A DNA stretch of 64,000 bases, from contig NZ_LWLN01000001.1 of assembly GCF_001953745.1 (NCBI RefSeq), positions 744,001-808,000 of the forward strand, read 5' to 3'. The DNA comes from Natrinema saccharevitans (GTDB lineage: Archaea; Halobacteriota; Halobacteria; Halobacteriales; Natrialbaceae). The position numbers and the translations under genes were made by a program. The notes below the pieces were generated by a model, which was given only the letters and a program-made list of their open reading frames with translations, ran no database searches and had not been told where the DNA came from. Positions within the stretch are counted from its first letter, which is position 1. The number at the start of each line of letters is the position of its first letter. Positions 1-50,459 of this stretch are shown here, piece by piece.

Positions 1-2
1 GC

Positions 3-314
3 GAGTTCATCACGTACTGTGGGACGAAAGGCGCCGTGCGACTACTCACGTATGCGATGGCGGCAAGGCTGGGACCCGACGGCGTTCGAGTGAACGCTAT
101 CCATCCGGGGCTGATCGAGACGACGATGACGACTGATGACTACCCGATTATGGGTACGGACGCCGAAGAAGACTTCTTGCAGGCGATCCCGTCGCGGCGG
201 GCGGGCCAACCTGAAGACGTCGCGGATGCGGCGCTGTACCTCGCAAGTGATCTCTCGGACTACGTAAACGGTGAATCGCTCGTCGTCGACGGCGGGATGA
301 CGAACACACAGTAG
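3..314 (+). CDS. SDR family oxidoreductase, C-terminal part (cut by window edge)
   Basis: The reading frame is open from the window edge and ends at TAG 312-314. It carries the YxxxK catalytic pair of short-chain dehydrogenases/reductases (YCGTK, nt 15-29), then RVNAIHPGLIETTM, the usual post-catalytic NxxxPG region, and the terminal VVDGGM motif. These mark the C-terminal ~103 residues of a classical NAD(P)-dependent SDR of about 250 aa. The Rossmann glycine motif lies outside the window, so substrate and cofactor cannot be told. Following this gene, nt 315-537 hold no recognisable gene. Confidence 0.9.
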   Translation, partial: EFITYCGTKGAVRLLTYAMAARLGPDGVRVNAIHPGLIETTMTTDDYPIMGTDAEEDFLQAIPSRRAGQPEDVADAALYLASDLSDYVNGESLVVDGGMTNTQ

Positions 315-537
315 CTGCTAAACGACGGTCACAGAGGGGAGTGACCGTTGGATCATTTTCCGTGTTGTACTGGTCGCACTATCCCACTGGCAGTCACCGT
401 TTACCACGGCCGCTACTTGCCGTCGATCGACAGATGTTGATCGGCCATCTCTGGTCGGAGTGCAGTGATCGATTCGCGCGTGTAGTGATCGAACTGTCCT
501 CCCCATTTCGCATAGAATTTTGAATAAAGAAACCGCG

Positions 538-1227
538 TTACGCTCTACTGGTAAACGTCAGGACGTGCCCGTCCGGGTCCCGAATCACGACCTCGTCGTC
601 GGCCTCGCGCTCGAGCGAGCCGATCCGATCCCGAACCGCGGCGAGCGCCGCGGCCGGATCGTCGGTCTCGAACCCGAGATCGACGTGGACGCCGCCGCGG
701 GCGTCGGCGATGCCGAGGTGGGGTTCCCACAGTTCCAGCGCCATCGGACCCTGCAGGCGTACGCGCTTGCGGTCGTCGCCCTCGTCGACCGCGTCGAACC
801 CCAGCACCTCGTAGAACGCCTGTGCGCGCTCGAGGTCGCGGACCTCGAGGACGACCTCGAAGATCCCGTCGATGCCCGGCCCGGCCACGTCCCGTTGTCC
901 GAGTTCGACGCAGTTGCCGTCGGGGTCGTACAGGTACAGCGATCGAGCGGGACCGAACTGTGCTTCCTCGAGGTCGTGGTCGGCGCTCAGTCGAACCCAC
1001 CAGTCGTCGTACTCGGCGTCGGGGATCGAGAACGCGAAATGGGTGTGGAGCCCGCCCCGCGGGACGCCGTCGGGACGGCGGACGACGAGGTCGGTGTCGC
1101 CGGCCGCGAAGACGACCTCGCGGGGGCCGCGCTCGCGGACGGTCAGGTCCAGTTCGTCCTCGTAGAACGCCGCTGCCGGCTCGAGGTACTTGGCCTCGAG
1201 CGCCAGCCAGGCCAGCCCGGATACCAT
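538..1227 (-). CDS. VOC (glyoxalase/bleomycin-resistance) family protein, two-domain
   Basis: 229 aa from ATG 1227. It contains two vicinal-oxygen-chelate modules: residues ~1-115 (AAAFYEDELDL ... YLYDPDGNCVEL) and ~120-229 (IFEVVLEVRDLERAQAFYEVLGF ... VIRDPDGHVLTF). The paired AFYE and DPDGxxxEL/LTF signatures are diagnostic of the family. Such proteins act as metal-dependent dioxygenases, glyoxalases or epimerases; the specific substrate is not evident. A longer in-frame start exists upstream but would run through the promoter of the divergent gene at 1370, so the ATG at the start of homology was chosen. Confidence 0.8.
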   Translation of the reverse strand: MVSGLAWLALEAKYLEPAAAFYEDELDLTVRERGPREVVFAAGDTDLVVRRPDGVPRGGLHTHFAFSIPDAEYDDWWVRLSADHDLEEAQFGPARSLYLYDPDGNCVELGQRDVAGPGIDGIFEVVLEVRDLERAQAFYEVLGFDAVDEGDDRKRVRLQGPMALELWEPHLGIADARGGVHVDLGFETDDPAAALAAVRDRIGSLEREADDEVVIRDPDGHVLTFTSRA

Positions 1228-1369
1228 AGCCGACCGTACGGGCGACGGGCGCATAGAAGCGTCGCCGCGCTCCAGCGACCGAACCGGCCGACCGTCGGCC
1301 GTCGACAACGACGACCGCGTGAAGCGGGGTTTACCTACGTTTATGCGTCGGTGGCTCATAACACACGAC

Positions 1370-2053
1370 ATGAGTTTTCGCGCCGACGAACGAGCGACGG
1401 ACTTCCGAGAGATCGACCGATTCGACGGCGGCGTCGGCTGGATCGCCCACCCCGACGAGCGGATGCAGCGGGCCAGCCACGCCCTCGAGATCGACGGCGA
1501 GGTCTGGGTGATCGACCCGGTCGACGCCGAGGGGCTCGACGACCTCCTGGCCGAGTTCGGCGACGTGGCCGGCGTCGTCGTCGGACTCGACCGGCACAAA
1601 CGCGACGCCGCCGCGGTCGCGAACCGCCACGATGTCCCTGTCTATCTCCCCGAGTGGTTCGAGGGCGTCACCGGCGACATCGACGCCGCGGTCGCCCGGT
1701 TCGACGACGAACTCTCCGACACCGGGCTCCGGGCGATCACCGTCGTCGACAACCGCTTCTGGCAGGAGGTGGCCCTCTACAATCCGACCGACGGCACGTT
1801 CGTGATCCCCGAATCGGTCGGGACCGTCGACTACTTCCTGGCCGGCGACGAGACGCTCGGCGTCCATCCGGCCTTGCGGCTGAAACCGCCCCGGTCGGCG
1901 CTGCGCGGCGTCGCTCCCGAACGCGTTCTCGTCGGCCACGGTGCCGGCGTGATGGAGAACGCGGCGGCCGTCCTCGAGGCCGCGCTCTCTCGGTCCCGAA
2001 AACGGGCACCGCGGCTGTACGCGGGGACCGCCTGGGAGATGCTGCCGTTCTGA
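1370..2053 (+). CDS. Degenerate metallo-beta-lactamase-like protein, function unknown
   Basis: 227 aa, ATG 1370. The layout resembles an MBL-fold protein: a strand region (VWVIDPVDAEGLDDLL), then VVVGLDRHKRDAAAVANRH followed by DVPVYLP. In active MBL enzymes this place holds HxHxDH followed by a GVPVYAP-like strand. Here the motif reads DRHKRD, so most metal ligands are lost. The C-terminal half ends with an alpha/beta segment (RVLVGHGAGVM) where MBL proteins keep a conserved GHG. I infer a catalytically altered or non-catalytic member; I do not recognise a named family. Upstream ATG/GTG codons give only unconserved extensions. Confidence 0.6.
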   Translation: MSFRADERATDFREIDRFDGGVGWIAHPDERMQRASHALEIDGEVWVIDPVDAEGLDDLLAEFGDVAGVVVGLDRHKRDAAAVANRHDVPVYLPEWFEGVTGDIDAAVARFDDELSDTGLRAITVVDNRFWQEVALYNPTDGTFVIPESVGTVDYFLAGDETLGVHPALRLKPPRSALRGVAPERVLVGHGAGVMENAAAVLEAALSRSRKRAPRLYAGTAWEMLPF

Positions 2054-2106
2054 ACGAGGGCCGCGTCGGGGAATACATCTAACTAGCAGCCCCCCATAGG
2101 ACGCCT

Positions 2107-2529
2107 GTGGTCTACGTCACTCGCGGTCTCGTCGACGTCCTACTGGATCTGGCCAGCGATGCGGACCCCGACGAGCTGACGACCGGCGTCTCGGTCTCGC
2201 CGGCCGGCGACCTCGAGGGAGCGGCCGATCTCCCGACCGAGACGCCGGTTTTTACCGACTTCTTTCTGCCGGACCCCGGCAACGCCGTCAACGCTGTCTT
2301 CGGCGTGAACCTGTCGACGCCCGCGCGCCAGACACAGGGGCGGTTCGTCTCCCATCCCGTCGGCGAACTCGCGGTGACCCGCCGCGACGATCTCGCGGAG
2401 GTGGTCTTCGTCGCCGTCCCCCCGTGGGAACCCGGCGAGGGCTCGTTCGCGGCGTTCGACCGTAGCGGCCGCCGCAAATCCCTCGAGATCGTCGACGCCA
2501 CGCCGCCGGGGAAGTCACTGACGGACTGA
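2107..2529 (+). CDS. Conserved-looking hypothetical protein
   Basis: 140 aa from GTG 2107. It is acidic, has no transmembrane segment and no recognised motif; the visible features are LLDLASDADPDELTTGVS near the N-terminus and a Pro/Gly-rich middle (VPPWEPGEGSF). Codon usage and third-position GC match its neighbours, which supports it being a real gene. It follows the MBL-like gene on the same strand after 53 bp and could be cotranscribed. I do not recognise a family. Confidence 0.6.
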   Translation: MVYVTRGLVDVLLDLASDADPDELTTGVSVSPAGDLEGAADLPTETPVFTDFFLPDPGNAVNAVFGVNLSTPARQTQGRFVSHPVGELAVTRRDDLAEVVFVAVPPWEPGEGSFAAFDRSGRRKSLEIVDATPPGKSLTD

Positions 2530-2600
2530 CGGCTCCGCCGTCGGCTCGAGCGACCGTCGACGCCGGCGGGCGAAAAAACGGAGCGACGGGAGGCCGGGTG

Positions 2601-2732
2601 TCAGCTCCCGGTCGTGACCGGCAACTCGCCGTCACCGATGATTCGGTCGATGATGCTCCCCGGATTCCGATCGCGCCGTTCGTCGTCGGACTCGTCGGTG
2701 TCCTCGGACGGGAAGTTCGGAACGTGTGGCAT
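2601..2732 (-). CDS. Small acidic hypothetical protein
   Basis: 43 aa, ATG 2732 to TGA 2601. The sequence starts MPHVPNFPSEDTDESDDE and ends IIDRIIGDGELPVTTGS: a charged, Asp/Glu-rich N-terminus and a hydrophobic amphipathic C-terminal helix (GSIIDRIIGD). It lies between two supported genes with no overlap, and its composition is haloarchaeal. It is too short for a family assignment and could be a non-coding frame. Confidence 0.4.
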   Translation of the reverse strand: MPHVPNFPSEDTDESDDERRDRNPGSIIDRIIGDGELPVTTGS

Positions 2733-2857
2733 CCGTCTCGCTCCGGCCGGCGGTACGCCCTCGAGAGACAAAAACGCTCTCCCGTTGCAATCGGGCCGGA
2801 GCAGTCCCGGTCGGCCCGATCGATCGGCGCGGAACGACGCGATCGGGTGGCCGCGGT

Positions 2858-3067
2858 CTACTCGAGGTAGCCCAGCCCGCGGAGCTGTTCGGTGATCTCC
2901 TCGAACTCCGCTTCGGTGAGTTCGCCCTCCTTCTGGTGCTGGATCACGATGCTGCGAAGCAGGAAGCGGACGAGGTCGCTCGTACTCTGAAAGCTCGTCC
3001 CTTCGATCGTCTCTTCGACGCGGTCCGCGAGGTCCTTCGGGATCGACACCGTGGTGTAGTCGGTCAT
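2858..3067 (-). CDS. Ribbon-helix-helix (CopG/Arc-type) DNA-binding protein
   Basis: 69 aa, ATG 3067. The N-terminal strand YTTVSIPKDLADRVEE followed by two helices (QSTSDLVRFLLRSIVIQHQKE) is the classical RHH pattern: an alternating polar/hydrophobic beta-strand that enters the major groove, then a dimerising helix pair. The C-terminal tail (ELTEAEFEEITEQLRGLGYLE) is acidic. Probably a dimeric transcriptional regulator; no operator or target can be told from the sequence. Confidence 0.8.
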   Translation of the reverse strand: MTDYTTVSIPKDLADRVEETIEGTSFQSTSDLVRFLLRSIVIQHQKEGELTEAEFEEITEQLRGLGYLE

Positions 3068-3214
3068 ACACCATACTCCGTCGCGGTCCCCAAAGGCGTG
3101 TCGACGGGCGACGCTCGTCGGCGACTCGCCCGGGGTTGTCCCGTCAGATCGCCGTCGATCTCGACCGTCTCCACAGCCATTTTTATATCCGGCTCCGTAT
3201 CGGGAGGTACAGGT

Positions 3215-3544
3215 ATGGGAGTACGGCCACCATCGAGCGGCGACGACGAGGAACCCGACAGCATCGAGTTCGGCATCGCGGCCGTCGACGCCCGCCTCAA
3301 GGACGCCGATCTGCGCTTTCCGGCCACGAAAGACGACGTCAACGCGGCGCTCGGCCACGAACGCATCCCCTACGATGTCCACGGCAACGACGTTGCGCTG
3401 TCCGAGATGCTCGAGCGGGTCCCGGCCCAACAGTTCGATTCCCGGCAGGAACTGCTGAACGCGCTCCACGAACCCTTCGAGGAGTATCGGCGGAACCGCT
3501 CGGGCGGGGTCGTCGCACAGGTCCGCTCGCTGTTGCCCTTCTGA
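3215..3544 (+). CDS. DUF5789-like small haloarchaeal protein
   Basis: 109 aa, ATG 3215, with a TATA-like TTTTATAT at 3181-3188, about 30 bp upstream, consistent with a near-leaderless transcript. The core (DARLKDADLRFPATKDDVNAALG ... VPYDV-like PYDVHG ... LSEMLERVP) resembles the DUF5789/DUF2795-like helical proteins common in haloarchaea; the family name is from memory and moderately sure. No transmembrane segment or catalytic motif is visible. Function unknown. Confidence 0.65.
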   Translation: MGVRPPSSGDDEEPDSIEFGIAAVDARLKDADLRFPATKDDVNAALGHERIPYDVHGNDVALSEMLERVPAQQFDSRQELLNALHEPFEEYRRNRSGGVVAQVRSLLPF

Positions 3545-3645
3545 ACGCGCTCGCTCAAGAGCCGTCGCGGCGCTGTATCGGCCGCGAAGCAATACCGGGG
3601 AGCGTCCCGAGCGGATCGGCCGCTCGGCGGCGTCGCGAGCGGCCG

Positions 3646-4590
3646 TTACTTCTCGGGTTCGTCCCGGGCGATCCGCTCGAGGCGGCGACGTTGCTCGCGG
3701 TGCAGCGTCACGAGCATGTCCGAGAGGACGCCGAACATGAGCAGTTGTACGCCAAGCAGGATGGCGGCCGCAGAGACAAGCGCCATGATCTCGTGGCCCT
3801 GCTGGTACTGGATCCACTCCCAGAGGACGTACATCGCGATGAGACCGCCCGAGACGATGCCGGTGATGCCGAGACTCCCGAAGTAAAACAGCGGGTTGTT
3901 CGTCTTGGCGAGCGAGTACAGCGCGAGCAGGATGGTACCGCCGTCCTTGATCGGGTGGAGGTTGGTTTCGGACTCCTCGGGACGGGCGCTGTAACTGACC
4001 GGAACGACGGTCGTTTCGACTCCGTGTTTGACACACTCGACGGCGAGTTCGGTCTCGATCGTAAAGCCGTCCGAGTCGAGCGACAGGCGCTCGAAGGAGT
4101 CGACGGTAAAGGCCCGATACCCCGACAGAATATCCTCGTAGTTCGCGCCGTGGACGAACCCGAACGCGCGGTTTATCACTCGGTTGCCGAACCCGTTCAG
4201 CGCCCGCATCGCGTCGTCGTCCATGTCGGCGAAGCGGTTGCCGATGACGTGTTCGTAGCCCCGGGAGAGCGGTTCGATCATCCGGTCGGCGTCGGCCGGA
4301 TCGTAGGTCCCGTCGCCGTCGAGCATCAACACGTAGGGAACGGTGATGTACTCGAGGGCCTCGCGGACCGCCTGGCCCTTCCCGCTGCCCGACTGGACGA
4401 TCACCTCGGCACCGTGATCGCGGGCGATCTCGCGAGTCTCGTCGCTCGAGTCGCCGTCGATGACGACGACGTTCGTGTATCCCTCGTCGTAAAAGCCCTC
4501 GATCACGTCGCCGATCGTGGCGGCCTCGTCGAGCGTGGGAATGAGGATACAGACCTCGTCGGAGGTGATCTCGCGGGAGTCGTCGGTCAT
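3646..4590 (-). CDS. aglJ: Dolichyl-phosphate hexosyltransferase AglJ
   Basis: 314 aa from ATG 4590 (a longer ATG at 4653 adds 21 non-conserved residues). The GT2 domain starts CILIPTLDEAATIGDVI, holds IDGDSSDET and the catalytic DxD region VLMLDGDGTYDPADAD (residues ~85-100), then GNRFADM and LSGYRAF. Two C-terminal hydrophobic segments (residues ~235-300) anchor it with the active site on the cytoplasmic face. In Haloferax volcanii AglJ adds the first hexose to dolichol phosphate in S-layer N-glycosylation. A TATA-like AATATAAAGG on the minus strand (4707-4716) precedes it. Other dolichol-phosphate mannosyltransferases are the main alternative. Confidence 0.85.
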   Translation of the reverse strand: MTDDSREITSDEVCILIPTLDEAATIGDVIEGFYDEGYTNVVVIDGDSSDETREIARDHGAEVIVQSGSGKGQAVREALEYITVPYVLMLDGDGTYDPADADRMIEPLSRGYEHVIGNRFADMDDDAMRALNGFGNRVINRAFGFVHGANYEDILSGYRAFTVDSFERLSLDSDGFTIETELAVECVKHGVETTVVPVSYSARPEESETNLHPIKDGGTILLALYSLAKTNNPLFYFGSLGITGIVSGGLIAMYVLWEWIQYQQGHEIMALVSAAAILLGVQLLMFGVLSDMLVTLHREQRRRLERIARDEPEK

Positions 4591-4855
4591 CGCGATTACC
4601 TCCTCGACGTCCGGCCGAGGATCCGACCCCGAACGTACCACGTCATCCTCCATCGACGACTACTCACCCGCGTAACTGCAAAAGGTTGCTGATTGATCAC
4701 CGGCGGGCCTTTATATTGGCCGCTCGATCGGTGCCGCCGTCGGCACGAACGGACCGGTACTACCGGGACTGCAGGTCACCGACGAACGATGGAACCGACG
4801 GCCGCGACTGTCGCAAACCCAAACCATACCCCGGCGAGCGTTGACCCGTCGCCGT

Positions 4856-5398
4856 ATGTGGAATCCGTTCGGGCGGCCCGATCGTCGCTTCGCCGGCGTC
4901 GTCCTCCTCGTCGCACTGGTCGGGCTCTCGCTGGGAGCGGGCGCGACCGCCGATCCCCTCGAGAGCGAGTATCCGACCGCGGGCGAGGTGACGCAAAACC
5001 GCGGGGCGTACGTCGGCGAGCGGGTCGTCCTCTCCGGGCGGGCCGCCGACGCCGATCCCGTCGTCGTCGCGACCCGTCCCGGCGGCGGGAGGTTCAGGGT
5101 GGTCGACGCGAGCGACCGACTGCACAACGGGGACGGCCCCCTCGAGCGGGGCGATCGCGTGACGGCGTCCGGACGGCTCGTCGACGAATCGACCCTCGCC
5201 GCCGAGCGAACGACTGTCGGCGACCCGATCGGGACGGCGTACATGCTCGTCGTCTCCCTTCTCGGTGGCCTCTGGACGGCCGGTCGGTTCGCGACCGACT
5301 GGCGGTTCGATCGCGATCGACTCGCGGTCGTTCGGCGGACGGGCCCGCGCTCGCTCGAGGACGCGGATCGCGGGGACGGGAGTGATCGGGATGCCTGA
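4856..5398 (+). CDS. Membrane-anchored OB-fold-like hypothetical protein
   Basis: 180 aa, ATG 4856 (a TTG 15 nt upstream is also in frame). An N-terminal hydrophobic segment (FAGVVLLVALVGLSLGAGAT, residues ~15-34) is followed by an extracytoplasmic domain, YVGERVVLSGRAADADPVVV ... GDRVTASGRLVD, with alternating strands and GDxVxxxGxL as in small OB-fold/nucleic-acid-binding-like modules. A second hydrophobic segment (YMLVVSLLGGLWTAGRF) lies near residue 130. The last 8 nt overlap the next gene, implying translational coupling. Function unknown. Confidence 0.65.
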   Translation: MWNPFGRPDRRFAGVVLLVALVGLSLGAGATADPLESEYPTAGEVTQNRGAYVGERVVLSGRAADADPVVVATRPGGGRFRVVDASDRLHNGDGPLERGDRVTASGRLVDESTLAAERTTVGDPIGTAYMLVVSLLGGLWTAGRFATDWRFDRDRLAVVRRTGPRSLEDADRGDGSDRDA

Positions 5399-5906
5399 CC
5401 TGCTCACGCACGTCCTCGTCGGCTACGCGATCGGGACGGCGCTGTCGGTCCTGTACGGGTGGTTCGACCGAGGCCACGTGACGCTGGTGATGCTCGGCGC
5501 GCTCTCGCCCGACCTCGCGAAGGTCGACCTCGTCGTTCCGGCGATCGTCGTCAGCGACCTGCTCGGCGTTCCGTTTCGCTGGTCGGCGTTGCATACCGTC
5601 GTCGGGTCGGTCCTTGCGGCGGCGCTTTGTGTACTGCTGTTCGCGCCCGAGTACCGTCGGACCGTTCTCGCGCTGGTCGCGCTCGGGGCCGCGTCGCACC
5701 ACCTCCTCGATCTCGGACTCGTGACGCCGACGGGGGAGAGCTACGCCGTCTTCTGGCCGCTGACCTCGGTCCGGCTTCCGGCAGGGGACCTCTATCTGAG
5801 TACCGACCGCTGGCCGGCGCTCGTCGCCGGGACGTGTGCCGCCCTCGCTCGGGCGGTCGCCCGCCGACGCGAGCATCGGGAGGGAGACGCGACGACGGCC
5901 GACTGA
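5391..5906 (+). CDS. YdjM-type membrane protein, metal-dependent hydrolase family
   Basis: 171 aa, ATG 5391, overlapping the previous gene by 8 nt. It begins PDLLTHVLVGYAIG, has LGALSPDLAKVD, later LHTVVGSVLAAAL, and ASHHLLDLGL: the spaced His/Asp residues (THxL, SPDL, LHT, HHLLD) seen in YdjM/LexA-regulated membrane-bound hydrolase-like proteins, set among about four hydrophobic helices. These residues are thought to bind metal in the membrane plane, but the substrate is unknown for the family. Likely coexpressed with the preceding gene. Confidence 0.7.
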   Translation: MPDLLTHVLVGYAIGTALSVLYGWFDRGHVTLVMLGALSPDLAKVDLVVPAIVVSDLLGVPFRWSALHTVVGSVLAAALCVLLFAPEYRRTVLALVALGAASHHLLDLGLVTPTGESYAVFWPLTSVRLPAGDLYLSTDRWPALVAGTCAALARAVARRREHREGDATTAD

Positions 5907-5928
5907 GAACCGGTCCGCGAGTCGCGGG

Positions 5929-7218
5929 CTACCAGGTCAGCCCCTCGTAAACCTCGAGTGCGTCCTCGTCGACGTCGATCCGGCGGCCGTCGACCACGAC
6001 TGTGCGGGCCATTCCATCGACCGAGAGCCCGTCGAACTCCGGCCAGCCGGTGGCGACGACCGCGCCGTCCGCGTCCGTGAGCGCGCCCTCCGACGAGTCG
6101 GCGTACTCGATGTCGGGGTAATCGGGGCGGACGTTCTCGATCGCGACCGGATCGTAGGCGACGACGTCCGCGCCGCGCGCCGTCAGGACGTCGATCACGT
6201 CGAGCGCGCGGGACTTGCGCACGTCGTCGGTGCCGGGCTTGAACGACAGTCCGAGTACCGCGATGCGGGCACCCTCGAGTGGAACGTGGTCCGCGAGGAG
6301 ATCGACGAGCCGCCGCGGCTGGCCGTCGTTAACCGCGACGGCCGCGTCGAGCAGTTCCGGCTCGTACCCCTGTTCGCGGGCACCGGCCCGCAGGGCGTTG
6401 ACGTCCTTGGGGAAACAGGAGCCGCCCCAGCCTAGGCCGGAGCGCATGAACCGCTCGGAGATCCGATCGTCGAGCCCGACCGCCTCGAGGACCTCGTAGG
6501 CGTCCGCGCCGTAGGCCTTGGCGACGTTGCCCAACTCGTTGACCAGCGAGACCTTCGACGCGAGGAAGGCGTTGTTCGCGTACTTGATGAGTTCGGCCTC
6601 CCGAACGTCGGTCTCGACCGGATCGGTCCCGTCGCGCTCGAGAATCGGGGCGTACAGCTCGCGGAGGGTGGCCGCCGCATCGTCGCTCGCCGTGCCGAAG
6701 ACGACCTTGTCCGGCTCGAGGAAGTCCTGCACCGCGGTTCCCATCCGGAGGAACTCGGGGTTCATGGCGACCTCGATCCCCTCGCCGATGGGGGTTCCGG
6801 ACTCGGCCTCGAGGATCGGCGCGACGACATCCTCGGTGGTCCCGGGCAGGACCGTACTCTTGACGACCACGAGGTGATCGTCGTCCTTGCTCGCGAGGGC
6901 GCGGCCGAGCGACTCCGCCCCGGCCTCCATGATCGCGAGATCGAGGCTTCCGTCGTCGGACTGGGGCGTGGGGAGACAGAGGAAGGTAACGTCCGTCTCG
7001 CGGACGGCATCGTAGTCGGTCGTCGCGCGGAGACGGGTGCCGGCGTGGGCGGCGATCCGCTCTTCGAGTCCGGACTCGTGGATCGGTGCCTCGCCGGCGT
7101 TTATGCTGGCGACGATGTCCTCGTCGATTTCGACGTTGACCACGTCGTGACCGAGGTCGGCGAGGCAGGCGGCGACTGTCGTGCCGACGTAACCGCTGCC
7201 GACGATAGAAACGTGCAT
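5929..7218 (-). CDS. aglM: UDP-glucose/GDP-mannose dehydrogenase AglM
   Basis: 429 aa, ATG 7218. NAD-binding GSGYVG at residues 7-12, LPTPQSDDGSLD, the MNPEFLRMG segment near 152, YANNAFLASKVSLVNE near 215, and the catalytic cysteine motif GWGGSCFPKD (Cys ~268); a C-terminal UDP-binding domain follows (AVLGLSFKPGTDDVRKSRA). This four-electron oxidation makes UDP-glucuronic acid from UDP-glucose. In Haloferax, AglM supplies hexuronic acids for positions 2-3 of the N-glycan. It lies 63 bp downstream of aglF on the same strand, so substrate synthesis and oxidation are probably coexpressed. Confidence 0.9.
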   Translation of the reverse strand: MHVSIVGSGYVGTTVAACLADLGHDVVNVEIDEDIVASINAGEAPIHESGLEERIAAHAGTRLRATTDYDAVRETDVTFLCLPTPQSDDGSLDLAIMEAGAESLGRALASKDDDHLVVVKSTVLPGTTEDVVAPILEAESGTPIGEGIEVAMNPEFLRMGTAVQDFLEPDKVVFGTASDDAAATLRELYAPILERDGTDPVETDVREAELIKYANNAFLASKVSLVNELGNVAKAYGADAYEVLEAVGLDDRISERFMRSGLGWGGSCFPKDVNALRAGAREQGYEPELLDAAVAVNDGQPRRLVDLLADHVPLEGARIAVLGLSFKPGTDDVRKSRALDVIDVLTARGADVVAYDPVAIENVRPDYPDIEYADSSEGALTDADGAVVATGWPEFDGLSVDGMARTVVVDGRRIDVDEDALEVYEGLTW

Positions 7219-7281
7219 GAACGGAGAGTCGAACGGTAGCGATTAGTTGTTTTTGGGTTCGGAGCGATAGTCGACCGTCAG

Positions 7282-8013
7282 TTACTGGTCGTCTTCGTTC
7301 TCGAGTTCGGCGAGTCGTTCTTCGGCTCTCTCTCGGTCCTCCGGATAGCCGACGTCGATGCGCCAGCCGTCCATCCGGATCGCGTCGATCGTCCGACCGG
7401 ACTGGATCAGCAGATCGATCGCGTCCGGTAGTTCGTACTCGCCGCGGCCGGAGGGCTGGACCAGGTGACAGGCGTGGAAGATCTCCGGCGTGAACGTGTA
7501 GAAACCCGTCATGACGAGGTTCGACGGCGGATCGTCCGGTTTCTCCATTACCTCGACGATCTCGCCGTACTCGTTGGTGTCGAGGACGCCGTATCTCGAT
7601 GCCTCGTCGTAGGGGACCTCTTCGACGAGGAAGGCGGCATCGGCCCGTTCCTCCCGCTGGCGGTTGATCACGTCCCCGAGGTTCGCTCGGAAGACGTTGT
7701 CCCCGAGCATGAGCATGAAGTCGTCGTCGACGTGGGGTTCCGCCTGCAGGATGGCGTGGGCGAGTCCGAGTTGTTCGCGCTGGTGGGCGTAGGTGATCGG
7801 AACGCCGCGGTACTCGTCGCCGTAGCGCTCGATGATCTTCTCTTTCATGTAGCCGACGACGAGGACGAACTCGGTCGCGCCGATCTCGATGAGGTTGTCC
7901 ATGACGTCCTCGATGAGGGGAGTTCCGTCGACCTCGACGAGAACCTTCGGCTTGTCTTCCGTAAGCGGCCGGAGGCGGGTTCCCTTGCCCGCGGCCAGCA
8001 CGACTGCTTGCAT
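7282..8013 (-). CDS. aglF: UTP-glucose-1-phosphate uridylyltransferase AglF
   Basis: 243 aa, ATG 8013; the upstream ATG at 8040 adds nine residues before the conserved start MQAVVLAAGKGTRLRPLT. That motif (residues 1-18) is the nucleotide-binding G-x-G-T/S-R-x-R-P signature of sugar-phosphate nucleotidylyltransferases. Further motifs are MLGDNVF (metal-binding Asp), VEVMEKPDDP and YELPDAIDLL. In Haloferax AglF makes UDP-glucose, the substrate of AglM encoded just downstream. Paralogues annotated as glucose-1-phosphate thymidylyltransferase are hard to separate by sequence alone; the context favours AglF. A TATA-like AAAGTATTTG lies ~25 bp upstream on the minus strand. Confidence 0.85.
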   Translation of the reverse strand: MQAVVLAAGKGTRLRPLTEDKPKVLVEVDGTPLIEDVMDNLIEIGATEFVLVVGYMKEKIIERYGDEYRGVPITYAHQREQLGLAHAILQAEPHVDDDFMLMLGDNVFRANLGDVINRQREERADAAFLVEEVPYDEASRYGVLDTNEYGEIVEVMEKPDDPPSNLVMTGFYTFTPEIFHACHLVQPSGRGEYELPDAIDLLIQSGRTIDAIRMDGWRIDVGYPEDRERAEERLAELENEDDQ

Positions 8014-8087
8014 ACCGAATGGGTCGAAAGAGTTGGACAAATACTTTGGGAGATAGCAGCGGTCGCGACCGGTGCGACCCAGTTCAA

Positions 8088-8173
8088 CTATAGTAGCCGC
8101 TGAACGTCATTGCACACCTGATCGCACGACTGCGCTGCGATCAGCGTGTGAATCGTTTCAGCGCCTACTATAG
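8088..8173. repeat. 86-bp palindromic intergenic element, copy 1
   Basis: Outer arms CTATAGTAGCCGCTGAA (8088-8104) and its near-complement (8157-8173) match at 16 of 17 positions. Inner arms CTGATCGCA (8118-8126) and TGCGATCAG (8135-8143) pair perfectly, and CACAC/GTGTG lie between, so almost the whole element can fold into one long hairpin. A second copy of the same 86 bp length is at 53369-53454. The element supplies the last codons (YSRR) and TGA stop of the flippase gene at 8158. No transposase is near; it looks like a MITE- or REP-like element. Confidence 0.85.
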
Positions 8174-9624
8174 CCACTCGAGGAGACCGGCAGGTCGAAC
8201 GGCACGTTCTGGTCGACGACCGTCCGGAACTCCGTCGAGATTCCCAATAGCACAGCGAAGTAGACGCCGGCACCGAGACCGACGAGCAACACGACAGTTG
8301 CGACGTTGTGGTTGAGCAGTCCGTAGGTCGACTCCGTCCAGAGTCCGGCGTACACCACGCCGGCCATGAGAACGGCGGCGAACCACTGTTTGGCGATCTC
8401 GCCCGTCGGGACCGCGAAGTCGATGATCGCGTCCACGTGGTAGTACGCCAGCATGAGACTGACCGCGACTGAAGCCATCGTCGCTACGGCCGCGCCAAGC
8501 CATCCGTACAGGTAGATCAACACGACGTTAAACGTAACGTTGAGCCCCACGAACGTGACGTTGACCCTGAAGGCGAGATCGGGGCGGTCGACCGCATTGA
8601 GGGTGTTCAGCAGCTGGTTCTGATAGCCCATGAGGAGATTTGCGACGATTAGGAGTGTCAGGACCGTTGCCCCCTTCGGGAACTCCGGGCCGTAGATTCG
8701 GAGGAGCCGCTCACCGAGGAGTGTCCCACCGAACAGCCCGGGAATCAAAAAGAGCCCGGCGAACGCGAGGGATTGTTCGACGATTCCCGCGACGGCCTGT
8801 GAATCCTCTTTGGCTGAGAGCGAACTCATTTCGGGAAACAGGGTGGAACTGAGCGCGCCGCTGAAGAGGATGAGAAATTCCGCGATATTCCAGGCCGCCG
8901 CGTAGACGCCGATCAGACCCGACGAAACGAAAAGTCTGAGGACAATGATATCGGTGTAGCTGAACATCTGCGACTGGAGACTACCCAGCCAGGAGAACTT
9001 CGCGAACTCCACGAGTCGCTCGAAGTGCTGTCGCTCGGGCCGTGAGACCTCGGACAAATTCCGCACGACGAAGTACCCGCCGACCAGAATAACGAGACAG
9101 TAGCCGACGATATGACCGGTGAACAGTCCAGCCGTGCCTGCGCCGGCGGCAATGAGACTGATCTGAAATAATGCTCGGCTTCCCGTTCGGACCGGTGATA
9201 GAGCGCCGCTTACGTGTACTAAATGTAATCCAGTGAGAAGCGAATTGAGCAGACTATTGAGAAGGACTACCAGTAGAATTACCACGATATATCCCGTGGC
9301 TGGATACCCGACATAGCCCGTGATCCGCGCTCGAAACAATATGAGTCCACAGCCGATGAGAACGAACAGACCGAAGATAATAGTCGCTCCCGCCAGGGCG
9401 TACTCCCCCCGATCTTCTCCCTCCGAAACCCGCTTCGATATCGCTCCGGAGAGGCCGACTTTCCCCACGATGGCGAGCCACGAAACGAGTCCGATGGCAA
9501 CGCTGTAAACGCCGAGCGGACCCGCACCGAGCATTCTGGCGATATAGACGGTCGCCAGAAATCCGAGTCCCGATGCGAAGAATTTCGAAATAAAATATAT
9601 GACGGAAGTTTGGCCGAGACGCAT
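8158..9624 (-). CDS. Oligosaccharide flippase, Wzx/AglR-like (MATE/MOP superfamily)
   Basis: 488 aa, ATG 9624. The start, QTSVIYFISKFFASGLGFLATVYIAR, is the hallmark of polysaccharide-biosynthesis (Wzx-type) flippases, and about 12-14 hydrophobic segments follow to near residue 470. No soluble domain is present. The predicted role is moving lipid-linked (dolichol-phosphate-bound) glycans from the cytoplasmic to the outer membrane face, as proposed for Haloferax AglR. It sits upstream of aglF-aglM on the same strand. The C-terminal four residues and stop codon come from the palindromic element at 8088-8173, so the ancestral C-terminus may have been slightly different. Confidence 0.85.
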   Translation of the reverse strand: MRLGQTSVIYFISKFFASGLGFLATVYIARMLGAGPLGVYSVAIGLVSWLAIVGKVGLSGAISKRVSEGEDRGEYALAGATIIFGLFVLIGCGLILFRARITGYVGYPATGYIVVILLVVLLNSLLNSLLTGLHLVHVSGALSPVRTGSRALFQISLIAAGAGTAGLFTGHIVGYCLVILVGGYFVVRNLSEVSRPERQHFERLVEFAKFSWLGSLQSQMFSYTDIIVLRLFVSSGLIGVYAAAWNIAEFLILFSGALSSTLFPEMSSLSAKEDSQAVAGIVEQSLAFAGLFLIPGLFGGTLLGERLLRIYGPEFPKGATVLTLLIVANLLMGYQNQLLNTLNAVDRPDLAFRVNVTFVGLNVTFNVVLIYLYGWLGAAVATMASVAVSLMLAYYHVDAIIDFAVPTGEIAKQWFAAVLMAGVVYAGLWTESTYGLLNHNVATVVLLVGLGAGVYFAVLLGISTEFRTVVDQNVPFDLPVSSSGYSRR

Positions 9625-9795
9625 ATGTGGACACTGAGAGGGCGTTGATTCGATCTATCCGCGTATGGGTTCTTCGGTCCGTCGATTCGAGTCGAAACTG
9701 ATGGAGTTCGCACGAGGCCGTCGCGACGGATCCGACCGCCGACCGAACCGGACCGCTCTGGTGGTGTGCCGTCGCCCGCTATCGAACCCGCGCCG

Positions 9796-10743
9796 TTAAT
9801 CAGCGTATCCTAAGGCTTCCAATCGGTCCGTTATCTCGTCGTCGTCCAGCTCTCTCTCGGATTCGATGGGGTCCGAACTGCGGATCTCACGGCGGTCGTC
9901 CGCCCCGATGACCAGCCACGGGACCTCGCGAAGCGTCGGCGTACTGAACCCTTCCATGTGACCCCAGACTCGGCTCGTGAACGGGTAGACCCGCTCGCCG
10001 AGCATCTCTCCGTGATCGGCGGTGACAACGGATTTCCCGGGGACCGCCTCGAGCAGTTCCTCGACGTGGCCGAGCGCTATCTCGAGGCTTTCGGTGTAGG
10101 CATCACGGATCTCCTGAAACGTCACGTCCCGCTGTTTGACTGCGCCCCAGATCTGGATCCCCTCGTCGTGTTTCCCGTACCCCTGAAGGTCCAGTCGCCG
10201 CCGTAGTTTGTCCGCCGTCTCCCCGAGATAGGGTCGATGGGGCTGCATGAAATGAACGATCAGTCGCTTGTCGGGATGCTGCTCGTGGGCAGCGATCGCC
10301 GCGCTGACGACATCGTCCGGCTGGACTGTTCCGATGTCTTCGTCCCACCGATCGGCGTGGAGGTGATCGATGTGATAGAATGTCTCCGCATCGAGATCGG
10401 TCGAAAACGGGTTCGCCGTCACGTAAACAGTATCGTGAAACTCCCCCGTCGCGAAGTTCTCCCGCATGAACTCCCAGCTTTTCTTCCCTTTCGACGGTGC
10501 CTTGTAAAGCGTCCCGTCGATCGTGTTGAGACGCTCGAAATAGTCGTACCGACACGCGTCGAGGATGATCAGGTTGTCCCAGTCCTCTGCCATGACGTCG
10601 AGCCCTTCCCCGTATTTTCGATCGGTGTATTTGCCGTATCCCTTATGTATTGGCCAGCTAGTCAACCGAACCGCCTCTCGGCCGATCAGAACCGGGTTCC
10701 GTATCGCCCGTTTCAAGTTCTCGAGTGTATAATGATTGTTCAT
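9796..10743 (-). CDS. Alkaline-phosphatase/sulfatase-superfamily enzyme, paralogue 1 of 4
   Basis: 315 aa, ATG 10743. DNLIILDACRYD (metal-binding Asp62), a conserved Ser89 in GKKSWEF at the nucleophile position, HDTVYVTANPF, HFMQPHRPYLG, the metal motif TADHGEMLGER (~242-252) and WGHME (~261-265). It ends in LEALGYAD, the C-terminal LxxLGY frequent in sulfatase-like proteins. A Ser nucleophile and no Cys/Ser-x-Pro-x-Arg formylglycine motif argue for phosphoester rather than sulfate-ester chemistry. No signal peptide; an N-terminal amphipathic region (YTLENLKRAIRNP) is shared with paralogue 3. Probably acts on glycan or lipid-linked intermediates in the cytoplasm (inference). Confidence 0.8.
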   Translation of the reverse strand: MNNHYTLENLKRAIRNPVLIGREAVRLTSWPIHKGYGKYTDRKYGEGLDVMAEDWDNLIILDACRYDYFERLNTIDGTLYKAPSKGKKSWEFMRENFATGEFHDTVYVTANPFSTDLDAETFYHIDHLHADRWDEDIGTVQPDDVVSAAIAAHEQHPDKRLIVHFMQPHRPYLGETADKLRRRLDLQGYGKHDEGIQIWGAVKQRDVTFQEIRDAYTESLEIALGHVEELLEAVPGKSVVTADHGEMLGERVYPFTSRVWGHMEGFSTPTLREVPWLVIGADDRREIRSSDPIESERELDDDEITDRLEALGYAD

Positions 10744-10847
10744 AATTCTGGTGTGTACGGGTGTTTGAATACATGCTGTCCCCTACTCAAGCCACTTTCG
10801 TCGTTCCAGCACTCTCCGCTTTGCGGTCGACAGTGGATTCCAAGAGA

Positions 10848-12002
10848 CTATTGACTCTGTATCTCTCGAACCGTTTCTTTCAGTAATATTGTATCCACAA
10901 CAATATCAGCCGACTCTGCCCGACAGTACATCGGTTCGTACGAGACGCCGAGCGTCGCCGCCAACAGCCGGTAGGGTTGTTTGACCTTGTCGCCGAACAG
11001 TTCTACGAGAGTGCAGTCGTCGGCGAAGACGATGTCGGTGAGGCCCGCTCCGTGCGGACCGACGACAACGTCTGCATCGGCGAACAGCCGCGCGTTCCGC
11101 TCGAGTGACCGTTCCTCCAGCCGATAGCACGAAAAGCCGAACTGCGACAGGACATCCATGACCTCTGTTTCATTTACCACGCGACGTTCGACGGCATTGG
11201 CACGCGAGACATAGACGTTGTCGCCGCTCTCCGGCGTCGTTTCGGGCGCGCGGTCGAGTATCTCTCCGCGGAGCCACGCGAAGTCCTCGGCGCGTCGCTC
11301 CGGGAACGACGGGACGACGAGACGCGAGACGTCGTATGCCGGTTTCGTCGCGTACTCGATTCGCCACTTGGGCCACTCGAGCAACTCGAGCGTTTCGTCA
11401 ACGAACGGCGGCGCATCCTGCGGTATCAACAGTGTCACGCGCTCGCCGGTTGCATCCTCGAACGCCCGGATATAGCGGATCTTCGGAACCGTCTCGACGA
11501 TCCAGTGATAGTAGTTCGGATACCGTGGCATAAGCGGTGCGGCGGTGTCCAGCGAGTCGGCGACTTCGCGGAAGTCGCGTCGGCGATGTCCCGATAGCAG
11601 GCCACGGAGCGGGGCGTCGCCGTAGAACAGTTGTCTGGAGAGCATCGCCATCATCGCCTGCTGAGCCTGGTCCGGCGCGGCGGCGCTTTCCTCGAGGATT
11701 TCGCGTTGCGGGGTCAGTGCCAGTCCGGTCTCCGAGAGGACGCGTCCATCCTCGACGAGCGCGACGAACGGGGACGACTGCTCCCCGTCGTCTCCCGGAA
11801 CCGTGATGATTTCACTTGCGGTCGATCCGAGGGCGTCCCGGGAGATGGTCCGAACGACGCCACGTTCGACGAGCGGATCGAAGACGGGCCGACCGAGTCG
11901 TTTCCGGGTCAGCAAATCGCCGGCCGCGACGATCGACTCCCCGGCCCCGTCGGCCGCGAGCTTTCGCGTTAGCTTTCGAGGACTGAACTCAGTCGGTATC
12001 AT
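10848..12002 (-). CDS. GT61-type glycosyltransferase (DUF563)
   Basis: 384 aa from ATG 12002; the longer in-frame ATG at 12119 would overlap the end of the upstream gene by 47 nt. Diagnostic segments: PRYPNYYHWIVETVPKIRY (~170-190), VYVSRANAVERRVVNE, then VVGPHGAGLTDIVFADDCTLVELF (~325-350), the GxHGAxxxN/D...VEL signature of GT61 capsular/xylosyl-type transferases. No transmembrane segment. It lies between two phosphatase-like paralogues transcribed the same way (12073-13014 upstream, 9796-10743 downstream), so the three form a likely transcription unit for a variable glycan step. Donor and acceptor unknown. Confidence 0.8.
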   Translation of the reverse strand: MIPTEFSPRKLTRKLAADGAGESIVAAGDLLTRKRLGRPVFDPLVERGVVRTISRDALGSTASEIITVPGDDGEQSSPFVALVEDGRVLSETGLALTPQREILEESAAAPDQAQQAMMAMLSRQLFYGDAPLRGLLSGHRRRDFREVADSLDTAAPLMPRYPNYYHWIVETVPKIRYIRAFEDATGERVTLLIPQDAPPFVDETLELLEWPKWRIEYATKPAYDVSRLVVPSFPERRAEDFAWLRGEILDRAPETTPESGDNVYVSRANAVERRVVNETEVMDVLSQFGFSCYRLEERSLERNARLFADADVVVGPHGAGLTDIVFADDCTLVELFGDKVKQPYRLLAATLGVSYEPMYCRAESADIVVDTILLKETVREIQSQ

Positions 12003-12072
12003 GTTCCCGTGAGCGAATGCGTTGTCGCTCCCGGCGGTACCGATCGCCGTCGGTGCTGGGCGAGGCACCCGG

Positions 12073-13014
12073 TCATCGATACCCCAGCGCCTCGAGACGC
12101 TCGTCGACGGTTTCTTCATCGACGCTTTCCTGCTCGACAGGCGGTTCCGTTCGGACCTCCCTACGGCCGTCGCCCTCCACGACGAACCAGGGGACCTTGA
12201 CCAGTTCCTCGGCGTGGACGCCGTACGGATGCCCGTACTTTCGGCGGCTCGGGATCGGCGATAGCCGCTCCCCGACGAAGTTGCCGTGGTCGGCCGTGAT
12301 CACCGACTTGCCCTCGAGCGTCTCGAGCAGGTCGGCGACTTCCTCGAGGACGACGTCGAGATTCTCCAGATACGCCTTCCAGACCGTTTCTATGTCCACA
12401 TCGACGGTCCCGTTTCGGAGATGGTTCCAGATACCCGGTTCCTCCTCTACGTCGAGATCCATCGTCCATCCGCCGCCGGCCATGTTTCGACCGAGTTTGC
12501 CGATAAACGGCGTGTGTGGTTGCATGAAGTGGACGATAAGACGCTTGTCAGGGTAGGTTTCGTGGGCGTCTACCGCCGCTCGTGCGACGGTTTCCGGGGT
12601 TACGGTCTGTAACTCCGTATCCCAGTCACCCAGACAATCGATGACGGCATGGAACGTGTCTTCATCAAGATTTAGACGTGGAACGTACGGGTTCGCGTTA
12701 ACGTAGACGGTATCGTGGAACGTCCCCGACGTGAAATTCCGTTCCAAGAACTCCTCGCTACTCGATCCCAGCGAAATCCGTGACTCGAGTTCGCCATCGA
12801 TATCGATCCGATCCGCGAACATGTCGTAGCGACAGGCGTCTAGAATTAGCAAATTGTCCCAATCTTCAGACATGATATGGGTTCCGTTTCCGTGTCGAAG
12901 GCGGAAAACCAGATTATTGAGTTCGATAGGAACGTATCGTAATACGCTCGTAGAGGTTTGAAGTAACCCTCCGCTGGCGTAGAGTTCCTTCGCTTTGCGG
13001 AGATGGTGACGCAT
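12073..13014 (-). CDS. Alkaline-phosphatase/sulfatase-superfamily enzyme, paralogue 2 of 4
   Basis: 313 aa, ATG 13014. It aligns end to end with the neighbours: DWDNLLILDACRYD (Asp59), SLGSSSEEFLERNF (Ser86 at the nucleophile position), HDTVYVNANPYVP, HFMQPHTPFIG, ITADHGNFVGER and KYGHPYG, ending RLEALGYR. The DHG motif has Asn instead of Glu in third place (DHGN), the only paralogue of the four to differ so. No signal peptide. It is divergent from paralogue 3, with a 97-bp intergenic region between the two starts, suggesting a duplicated, inverted pair. Confidence 0.8.
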   Translation of the reverse strand: MRHHLRKAKELYASGGLLQTSTSVLRYVPIELNNLVFRLRHGNGTHIMSEDWDNLLILDACRYDMFADRIDIDGELESRISLGSSSEEFLERNFTSGTFHDTVYVNANPYVPRLNLDEDTFHAVIDCLGDWDTELQTVTPETVARAAVDAHETYPDKRLIVHFMQPHTPFIGKLGRNMAGGGWTMDLDVEEEPGIWNHLRNGTVDVDIETVWKAYLENLDVVLEEVADLLETLEGKSVITADHGNFVGERLSPIPSRRKYGHPYGVHAEELVKVPWFVVEGDGRREVRTEPPVEQESVDEETVDERLEALGYR

Positions 13015-13111
13015 ACGATGTGGAACTTCCTTCTGGGGAAATAACGTTTCGGTTCAGCAAGCGAACGGGTAAGCGGTACAATCAAACCATTGGAATTGGC
13101 ATTTCTAGGCA

Positions 13112-14050
13112 ATGCCAGAGCGATATACTCTCGAGAACTTTCGGAAGTTACTGCGCGAACCGGAGTACGTTCTCTGGGAACTCCAACGGAAAATATTTCA
13201 GTTCCGGTTTGGGGATGGAATCGATGTGATGTCGAAAGACTGGGATAACCTTATTCTCCTTGATGCGTGCCGTTATGACTCGTTCAAATCGGAAAACACG
13301 ATAGACGGGAAGTTAACATCAGTCGTCTCAAAAGGAGGATCGAGTTGGCCGTTCATGCAGGCGAACTTCGCCAACCGTGACCTCCACGACACCGTCTACG
13401 TCACGGCAAACCCTCATACAGGAAAACTCTCCGATGACGTGTTCCATGCCGTAAAAATGCTCCATCTCGAAGCGTGGAACGATGAATACGAAACTGTCCT
13501 TCCCGAAGACGTACTCAATGCAGCGATAGACGCACACGAGGAGTATCCGAACAAACGATTGATCATCCATTTTATGCAACCCCACCGGCCGTTTATCGGG
13601 CCAACAGGACGAAAATTAAGAGAAGAGTACAATCTAGGAGGATACAATAGAATGTTGTCCTACGAGGAATCGAATGGTGAACGAGAGGAGACGGACTTCA
13701 CTGCACGCGTTGAACGAGGCGAACTTTCCCTCCCACGGATACGTGAAGCGTATCGGGAAAACGTAGCGACCGCGGTCGAATATGCAGAGAAGGTATCGAA
13801 CGCACTCTCCGGAAAGACCGTTGTGAGTGCCGATCACGGCGAACTACTCGGTGATCAATTCACGAGGTTCACAAAACCGAAATACGGACACTCATGGGAA
13901 CATCTAAAGAACAAGGAATTGTACGTCGTACCGTGGCTCGAGATTAAGACAAACAATAGAAGAACTATTACAGCCGATAGTCCCACTGAGATCAACCGGG
14001 GAAGCGAAGCGGAGGTTGAGGATCGGCTACGATCACTTGGGTATCGATAA
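13112..14050 (+). CDS. Alkaline-phosphatase/sulfatase-superfamily enzyme, paralogue 3 of 4
   Basis: 312 aa, ATG 13112. Motifs: DWDNLILLDACRYD (Asp51), SKGGSSWPFM (Ser78), HDTVYVTANPHTG, HFMQPHRPFIG, VVSADHGELLGDQ and KYGHSWEHL; the tail ends RLRSLGYR. It starts PERYTLENFRKLLREP, matching the N-terminus of paralogue 1. Codon usage is clearly more AT-rich than the surrounding genes (AAA, AAT, ATA and GAA codons are frequent), which suggests separate acquisition rather than local duplication. No signal peptide or membrane segment. Confidence 0.8.
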   Translation: MPERYTLENFRKLLREPEYVLWELQRKIFQFRFGDGIDVMSKDWDNLILLDACRYDSFKSENTIDGKLTSVVSKGGSSWPFMQANFANRDLHDTVYVTANPHTGKLSDDVFHAVKMLHLEAWNDEYETVLPEDVLNAAIDAHEEYPNKRLIIHFMQPHRPFIGPTGRKLREEYNLGGYNRMLSYEESNGEREETDFTARVERGELSLPRIREAYRENVATAVEYAEKVSNALSGKTVVSADHGELLGDQFTRFTKPKYGHSWEHLKNKELYVVPWLEIKTNNRRTITADSPTEINRGSEAEVEDRLRSLGYR

Positions 14051-14190
14051 GCTCCGATAGGTATTTTATACTCTCCACAGTATAAAGATAAATATATTAT
14101 ATAATTATTTATGGTATTTAGTCGAGTATTTTACCGAAATCAGCAGGTTTTATCGCAAATATTATCCCTGCCGTTGGCTACTTCAGACCA
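14051..14190. other. AT-rich intergenic spacer
   Basis: This spacer contains runs such as ATAAATATATTATATAATTA (14088-14107) in an otherwise GC-rich region. Several TATA-like boxes are possible for the gene at 14191 (for example TTTTATCG near 14150). No ORF or stable hairpin is seen. Together with the AT-leaning gene before it, it marks a compositional island of about 1.2 kb. Confidence 0.6.
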
Positions 14191-15207
14191 ATGCTGCGGC
14201 ACGAAGTGAGCGTCGACAATATTAAGAGGGCTCTAAAGAACCCCGATCAGGCCGTTGACGAGACTCTTTACGAACTTTTCTATCGGATCCCAATGACGTA
14301 TGCAAATACGGTAACGACCATCGGGACGAACGTCTTCACACGCGAGTGGGAGGTGTTGATTCTGCTGGATACCTGCCGTGTCGACGCGCTTCGCGCGGTT
14401 GCCGACGAGTACGACTTCATCTCATCGGTTGATAGCATTCGTTCGGTCGGCGGTCGATCCCCCGAGTGGATCGCCAAGACGTTCGTCGACGAATACGAGG
14501 GGACGATCCGGGAAACGGCGTACCTCACTACGAACGTCTTCACGGAGCCGATCCTCGACACTGCAAGCCCCGATGCCGGATCGTTAGCTGATAAAAGCTT
14601 TACCTATGATCTACTGGACAGAATCCCGACCGTCGGCGTAGAGACGCTGGGGAAGTGCGAGTACCTGTTCGAATGCGAACCGGTTGGCGAATCGGGACCA
14701 CTGGGCCACACTGAGGGAGGGACGCCGCCTCGATACGTAACTGACAGGGGTATCGATGTCGCCCGCAATGAGAGCTTCGACCGTCTTATTCTCCACTATC
14801 TTCAGCCACACCCACCCTACATGGCGCGGGCGCTCGAGGAAGACCGCCCGTTGTACAAACACGAACGAGACTGGTGGGGATACATAGGGGAAACGGATGA
14901 TAAAGACACGATTTGGGAGACGTATCTGGACGAACTACGGTTCGTACTCGACGACGTAGAACTACTCCTGCAAAACATGGACGCCGAACGGGTCGTTATC
15001 TCGTCCGATCACGGTGACGCGTTCGGTGAATTCTGGGAGTTCGGCCACAAAACGGGTAGCATGCATCCGAACGTCCGAAACGTGCCATGGGTAGAGACGT
15101 CCGCAACGGACACCGGTTCGTACACTCCGGAGTTCGAAGCACCATCGACGAACGACGCGGATAACGATCTCGCCGAGCAACTCGAGGCCTTAGGATACAA
15201 AATGTAA
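14191..15207 (+). CDS. Alkaline-phosphatase/sulfatase-superfamily enzyme, paralogue 4 of 4 (divergent)
   Basis: 338 aa, ATG 14191. The most divergent paralogue: EWEVLILLDTCRVD replaces the usual DNLxxLDACRYD (metal Asp60 kept), with SVGGRSPEWIAKTF (Ser90), RETAYLTTNVF, HYLQPHPPYMA and VISSDHGDAFGEFWEFGH; it ends QLEALGYKM. The third motif residue is Asp (DHGD). The middle has an insertion (~150-200) rich in Gly/Glu. The preceding 140-bp spacer is strongly AT-rich. It is followed by the GT4 gene at 15304 after 96 bp and may be cotranscribed with it. Confidence 0.75.
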   Translation: MLRHEVSVDNIKRALKNPDQAVDETLYELFYRIPMTYANTVTTIGTNVFTREWEVLILLDTCRVDALRAVADEYDFISSVDSIRSVGGRSPEWIAKTFVDEYEGTIRETAYLTTNVFTEPILDTASPDAGSLADKSFTYDLLDRIPTVGVETLGKCEYLFECEPVGESGPLGHTEGGTPPRYVTDRGIDVARNESFDRLILHYLQPHPPYMARALEEDRPLYKHERDWWGYIGETDDKDTIWETYLDELRFVLDDVELLLQNMDAERVVISSDHGDAFGEFWEFGHKTGSMHPNVRNVPWVETSATDTGSYTPEFEAPSTNDADNDLAEQLEALGYKM

Positions 15208-15303
15208 TTCGGGAATGATGACTCCGAGCTGAAAGGAGTGGTATGAAGAAAGCGGTATGAGAACCACTGCTCAGGTTACCTCCGCTAATCGGAGGGCAAC
15301 GAG

Positions 15304-22765: not shown

Positions 22766-22833
22766 CAGATCTCGTCTCTCCGATCGCACGACCGCGTCGC
22801 GAGCAGCGTGATCCGTCTCAGCAGCGACGGTAG
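22750..22833. repeat. Diverged copy of the 86-bp palindromic element
   Basis: CGATAGTAGCAACTGA at 22750-22765 aligns with the CTATAGTAGCCGCTGAA end of copies 1 and 2; GATCGCACGAC at 22782-22792 matches the element's centre exactly, and AGCAGCGTGATCCGTCTCAG (22802-22821) follows the right half. The right terminus (GACGGTAG) is degenerate. As in the other copies it sits at a gene end and contains the stop codon (TGA 22763-22765) of the DUF368 gene. Assignment is by eye. Confidence 0.5.
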
Positions 22834-49395: not shown

Positions 49396-49478
49396 TTCCA
49401 ACGGGACTATCGCAGCCACTGAAACGATTGCCGCGTTGACTCGAAGACGAATACGGCGACGATGGGTGGCGAAGAGAC

Positions 49479-50416: not shown

Positions 50417-50459
50417 CCGAACGGTTAAGTGGTCGACGCCGAAAGTCGCCGGTACCCGA

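Follow-up and report, generated by a model that had tools for sequence, protein, structure and literature searches.

In the 3.98-Mb genome of Natrinema saccharevitans, a 64,000-nt stretch of DNA, hereafter the window, carries two palindromic sequences of 86 bp each, and the question that they raise is whether such a palindrome is kept for its fold or has arrived as mobile DNA. The first-pass annotation took it as a sign of selection for a foldable structure (an RNA hairpin, a cruciform or a protein site) or of a history of gene conversion. We regard it instead as a mobile element, because of a TA duplication seen against empty sites, IS630-like ends and identical copies at unrelated loci. This reading retains two of the earlier proposals, a protein site, putatively for a transposase, and gene conversion in the form of arm-to-arm copying. 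On these grounds we are confident that the element is a non-autonomous IS630-type intergenic MITE inserted at CTAG, whose palindrome would be kept by transposase binding together with arm copying.

The copies in the window and their fold

Copy 1 (8088-8173) and copy 2 (53369-53454) are of equal length, as first described, and are 91% identical over 86 bp. Both contain the core GATCGCACGAC, and a 20-mer common to the two would be expected 0.01 times by chance. The complementary arms extend beyond the 17 bases originally assigned to them, since each copy pairs nearly end to end (36 pairs) into one long hairpin. Over the outer 17 positions, pairing is perfect in copy 2, and copy 1 has a single mismatch (8097/8164). 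On either strand, the hairpin of each copy was 24-32 kcal/mol more stable than those of shuffled sequences (z = -8.3 to -10.9).

Copy 1 lies on the plus strand and has the form C-TA-[80 bp]-TA-G. Comparison of filled and empty sites places the duplicated target TA at 8089-8090 and 8171-8172. The 80 bp between them consist of a 27-nt left terminal inverted repeat (IRL, 8091-8117), an inner stem-loop (8118-8143), which is lineage-specific among some genera and almost always paired, and a 27-nt right repeat (IRR, 8144-8170, minus strand); both repeats are conserved across genera and resemble the ends of IS630 elements. A polysaccharide flippase gene (PF01943; 8158-9624, minus strand) terminates inside this copy at the TGA codon 8158-8160. 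Copy 2, also on the plus strand, begins with CTAGAG and ends with CTCTAG; the same comparison places its target TA at 53370-53371 and 53452-53453. Its 27-nt IRL (53372-53398) and IRR (53425-53451, minus strand) were delimited by cross-genus conservation and its inner stem-loop (53399-53424) by folding and covariation. The TAG stop codon of the preceding tRNA N2,N2-dimethylguanosine methyltransferase gene (PF02005; 52257-53372, plus strand) is formed by the target TA and the first base of copy 2.

A covariance model made from 33 copies detected a decayed third copy in the window (22750-22833, plus strand; 34 bits, E 5.6e-7), which is situated between convergent genes and holds the stop codon of the gene at 21812-22765. 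This degenerate copy adjoins a gene for a second, more divergent Cdc6-like AAA protein (22842-24005, minus strand). Elsewhere in the window, a 1-kb non-coding region (49396-50459) upstream of an Orc1/Cdc6 gene (50460-51659) contains at least seven CTATACAGCGGCACTCCGGGGTTC-like repeats, and is probably a replication origin with ORB-type repeats.

Insertion at CTAG, dispersal and gene context

Two genomes, G004 and G006, lack both insertions. At copy 1, the filled site of N. saccharevitans (G000) reads CTA[TAGTAGCC...GCCTACTA]TAG-CC and the empty site of both other genomes CGACTAGCCGC, so that the junctions are CTA[80]TAG-CC and CTAG-CC, respectively. At copy 2, the filled site is CTCGA-CTA[GAGTAGCC...GGCTACTC]TAG-TCCGGCG; the empty site is CTCGACTAGCCCGGCG in G004, where the flank is 94% identical, and CTCGACTAATCCAGCG in G006, giving CTA[80]TAG-TCC versus CTAG-CCC and CTAA-TCC. 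At the two loci resolved in this manner, 80 bp had been inserted into CTAG and the TA doubled, which is the signature of IS630/Tc1-mariner transposition; CTA...TAG flanks were found in most copies. According to Tenzen and Ohtsubo (1991), as cited in PMC2170065, IS630 prefers TA within CTAG, and IS630/Tc1 elements normally duplicate TA only (PMC2170065). The target is scarce, with 12 CTAG sites in the 64-kb window versus 64 expected from trinucleotides. CTAG is rare and strongly avoided in all haloarchaea, in which an orphan methylase for CTAG is nonetheless conserved (PMC6471742).

The genome-wide and wider haloarchaeal search that the first-pass annotation had proposed shows that the element is far from rare. 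In the home genome, a covariance-model search gave at least 150 matches, 21 of which (hand count) were opposite-strand duplicates; this leaves at least about 129 places, or at least about 127 when copies in the repeated termini of contig C2 are counted only once, with roughly 125 distinct copies among the matches listed. They occur in both orientations, on the chromosome and on a second large replicon. With a length of 80 bp, into which a transposase gene would not fit, no coding capacity and at least about 125 copies, the element has the size and dispersal of a MITE. It was present in 105 of the 125 genomes of the family Natrialbaceae (25 of 29 genera). Beyond the family it was sporadic (1 of 16 other-family genomes), with occurrences on plasmids of Haloarcula, Halomicrobium and Halostella, among others. 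The closest named relatives with a match to the exact 25-base core were all Natrinema. A viral origin was also considered and rejected, as the exact core had no match in viral contigs and none was found in phage records.

Identical copies were observed at unrelated loci, eight in N. ejinorense, six in N. mahii and four in this genome, each set with its own compensated variant (CAACTG/CAGTTG, CCACTG/CAGTGG and CCGCTG/CAGCGG, respectively). Such copies indicate recent, species-specific bursts; together with the absence of insertions from close relatives they point to recent mobility, and the element may still be mobile at present.

Several arrangements of copies were noted in passing. Tandem pairs at L098:7168-7333 and G000:C1:1112793-1112964 have periods of 80 bp (with a common CTATAG) and 86 bp; the 80-bp-period pair is represented by one copy in L079. 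Two copies appear at both ends of contig C2 (about 1-15500 and 406400-421898), shifted in each case by the same distance of about 406,415 bases and with the same scores, which suggests that this contig represents a circular replicon whose ends are redundant in the assembly. At L188:566-820 and L076:7838, a MITE is followed about 160 bp further on by a solo right end that reads as codons for HRFSGYYS close to where a small ORF terminates, possibly a case of coding exaptation.

Gene context was scored for 57 copies, using gene calls from a simple codon-usage gene finder. No gene was interrupted by any of the 57, whereas 30 of the 108 remaining CTAG sites of these stretches lay within genes. Neighboring genes were tandem in 24 cases, convergent in 13 and divergent in 14, with no orientation call in six. 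As for stop codons, relative to which it had been proposed to examine the element's positions, 12 of the 57 copies contain that of a gene, and its place within the element is almost always one of two, TAG at 4-6 (four copies) or TGA at 14-16 (six copies). IS870, to judge from a reference title in PMC6471742, likewise acquires a stop codon from CTAG. We propose that the element moves by excision and insertion into the TA of CTAG, with the TA being doubled. CTAG is scarce in coding DNA and can coincide with a TAG stop codon, and insertions within genes are presumably purged; the copies that persist would then be intergenic or sit precisely at a gene's 3' end, in which case the element comes to enclose the stop codon.

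This placement bears on a rival view, in which the element has been domesticated as a transcription terminator or an RNA-processing hairpin and its folded RNA is what selection maintains at the ends of genes. The very stable fold on both strands, the strong cross-genus covariation, which extends to the inner stem beyond the conserved ends, and the enclosed stop codons all speak for such a role. However, convergent neighbors were not in excess, 14 copies lie in divergent promoter regions, no T-tract was present at either end, and CTAG targeting alone can explain where the stop codons fall. Since target choice and purging of harmful insertions account for the placement, a terminator role is not needed; we consider it improbable, and the RNA function first suggested is unsupported. 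An intrinsic terminator in particular was rejected on the missing T-run and the 14 of the 57 copies that have divergent neighbors, and a regulatory RNA on the Rfam covariance-model search, which gave no match to the element. Far less probable still is a REP/BIME-type element mobilized by a RAYT (IS200/IS605-like) transposase. Such elements are likewise short, palindromic, high-copy and intergenic, and the occasional tandem copies and a GTAG near the foot of the hairpin would fit, whereas IS200-type insertion makes no target duplication and the present element has a duplicated TA and terminal inverted repeats with IS630-like ends. We rejected this assignment because a 20-40-bp unit and duplication-free insertion would be expected, as opposed to the 80-bp unit and TA duplication observed.

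Reading the element as an IS630-type MITE has consequences for annotation and for the biology of CTAG. Its copies provide genes with stop codons and form small hairpins between genes, so annotators should not call them regulatory RNAs. One of the commonest repeats of the family gains a defined target and mechanism, and an abundant mobile element that targets exactly CTAG makes a link of CTAG avoidance or methylation with mobile-element load testable.

Terminal repeats, partner transposase and covariation of the arms

The 27-nt end pair of the MITE is IRL TAGTAGCCRCTGAAMGTCATTGCACAC and IRR TAGTAACAACTGAAACGATTTACACAC. Similar ends are found in the ISNma7/ISNpe3 group of IS630 elements (1055-1057 bp), which occurs in many genomes of the genus; these begin with TAGTA, mostly in a CTA...TAG context, and have IRL TAGTAGACGTTAGAAATAATTGCTCAC and IRR TAGTAACCGTTAGAACTTTCTACTCAG. 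When the cross-genus MITE ends (TAGTAGCCACTGAAMGTCATTGCACAC and TAGTAACAACTGAAACGATTTACACAC) were compared without gaps to those of the ISNma7 group, 19 of 27 and 17 of 27 positions, respectively, were identical by hand count. A left-right difference, G6/A6, is common to both kinds of ends; in the inner part of the ends the similarity is no more than moderate (p about 0.02-0.04 relative to background). Taken with the TA duplication at CTAG, these ends indicate a non-autonomous IS630-type MITE.

It had been noted that no transposase adjoins the two copies. This holds for the copies, and the expected type was not found in the home genome either: a partner in the same genome is usual, not obligatory, for an IS630 MITE, and here the search gave no DDE_3 match, no IS DNA match and a best NF033545 score of 18.7 bits (cut-off 100). 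DDE_3 was found in 18 of 29 genomes of the genus. A DDE_3 search of the genus and of MITE-rich genomes, a degenerate end pattern applied to 392 genomes and end detection around IS630 genes revealed relatives, but no autonomous IS whose ends match those of the MITE exactly. G335, a genome rich in a 117-bp relative of the MITE, also has no DDE_3 IS630 transposases; considering both this genome and the home genome, the mobilizer was either not found or has been lost. The 117-bp sister MITE of G335 (L228:1400-1700, L237, L239 and L240; at least 21 end-pattern matches) has the same ends and another inner palindrome, ACCCTCACGA...GTGAGGGT enclosing CTCAGAACCGGT. In G355, an ISNma7-type IS630 element (L243:798-2000) has apparently inserted into a MITE copy or next to one.

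The first-pass annotation had based its case for compensatory change on position 4/83, where copy 1 has T-A and copy 2 G-C. The change is real, and its compensatory reading is ambiguous: CTAG is self-complementary and is also the target, and therefore a 4-bp CTAG duplication would look alike. Indeed, copy 2 may have arisen by duplication of the full CTAG and loss of the terminal T/A, an origin that we hold to be possible though not the likelier one. This would agree with CTAG at the empty site, with CTAG-AGTAGCC...GGCTACT-CTAG at the filled one and with the restriction of G-C at 4/83 to copy 2 among 128 collected full-length copies; against this, IS630/Tc1 elements normally duplicate TA only (PMC2170065), and the covarying ends of other copies (TCG/CGA, C-G at 4/83) cannot be CTAG duplications.

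Covariation of the arms as such, by contrast with this one example, was borne out. Within this genome (33 copies) it was weak on double-change counts. Across genera, nine pairs covaried, among them 12/75, 13/74 and 33/55, with 21 both-side cells versus 5.5 in shuffles and none of 500 shuffles as high; the alignment (A2) was hand-picked to span variants, and so these counts show that compensated variants exist, not how frequent they are. The inner stems vary among genera and yet pair (CTGATCGCA/TGCGATCAG, TCGATCGCC/GGCGATCGA, TCTATCG/CGATAGG and ACCCTCAC/GTGAGGGT).

What produces this covariation is a separate matter. One account, compatible with the MITE explanation and competing only with selection for the fold, is that covariation is a by-product of palindrome self-correction, either through hairpin repair or through intrastrand template switching, after which transposition spreads the corrected copy. 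One copy that consists of two left arms (C2:357336) and another with an inverted loop (C2:43100) indicate that arms can be copied or flipped; one-sided intermediates occur at 5/82 alongside fully compensated copies, species-specific variants are shared by identical copies (such as the eight with CAACTG/CAGTTG), and in the ISNma7 group the two ends differ from each other, so that their identity is not a requirement. Left-right differences between the arms (GTCATTGCACACC versus ACGATTCACACAC) are nevertheless stable in most copies, and correction cannot be very efficient; moreover, almost all of the lineage-specific inner stems pair. On balance, self-correction is the account that we somewhat favor. 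Given the copying and flipping of arms, we think that most covariation reflects palindrome correction and the subsequent spread of copies so corrected; selection on the stem is unproven. It is doubtful that the element belongs to a family-wide MITE lineage with conserved, putatively transposase-binding ends and an inner stem replaced several times by unrelated sequences that stay palindromic. The full-length hairpin would in that case itself be required, perhaps as a folded single-stranded or cruciform form in transposition or to insulate host genes. For the IS630-type MITE, the palindromic form would instead be kept because two ends are needed to which a transposase would bind, and because one arm is occasionally copied onto the other; a single master copy corrected in this way would then spread in each species.

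Comparison with known systems

In the literature searched, we found no account of the element's sequence or of a named Natrinema MITE, although an ISfinder entry may exist. Among haloarchaea, the MITEs, SMRs and PATEs of Haloquadratum walsbyi are comparable as transposase-free mobile repeats, and some of these MITEs are mobile without an intact partner transposase; they were reported from one species, and the portion of that account considered here names neither the element's sequence nor IS630 (PMC3119063). Within the genus, the ISNma7/ISNpe3 group shares with the MITE the CTA...TAG context, the TAGTA ends, imperfect 27-nt repeats and the same left-right difference. It differs in its length of about 1057 bp and its transposase gene, and with 17-19 of 27 end positions identical it is at most a candidate parent.

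Among bacterial systems, the Correia (NEMIS) elements of Neisseria also have TA at their ends, a target duplication and a long hairpin, and they form two size classes with the same ends, as do the 86- and about 120-bp forms here (PMC2229807); their sequence is unrelated, and IHF and RNA-processing features are known for them. RUP, an IS630-Spn1-type MITE of Streptococcus pneumoniae, is similar in being about 100 bp long, intergenic and without an ORF, in its TA target and in its roughly 100 copies per genome, and its ends resemble a resident IS630 just as the ends described here are IS630-like (PMC2229807). Unlike the present element, RUP has its IS630-Spn1 in residence and short 9-bp ends, whereas the element of Natrinema has no resident IS630 that we could find, targets CTAG and is palindromic over almost its whole length. 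It is an unusually widespread addition to the IS630-type MITEs.
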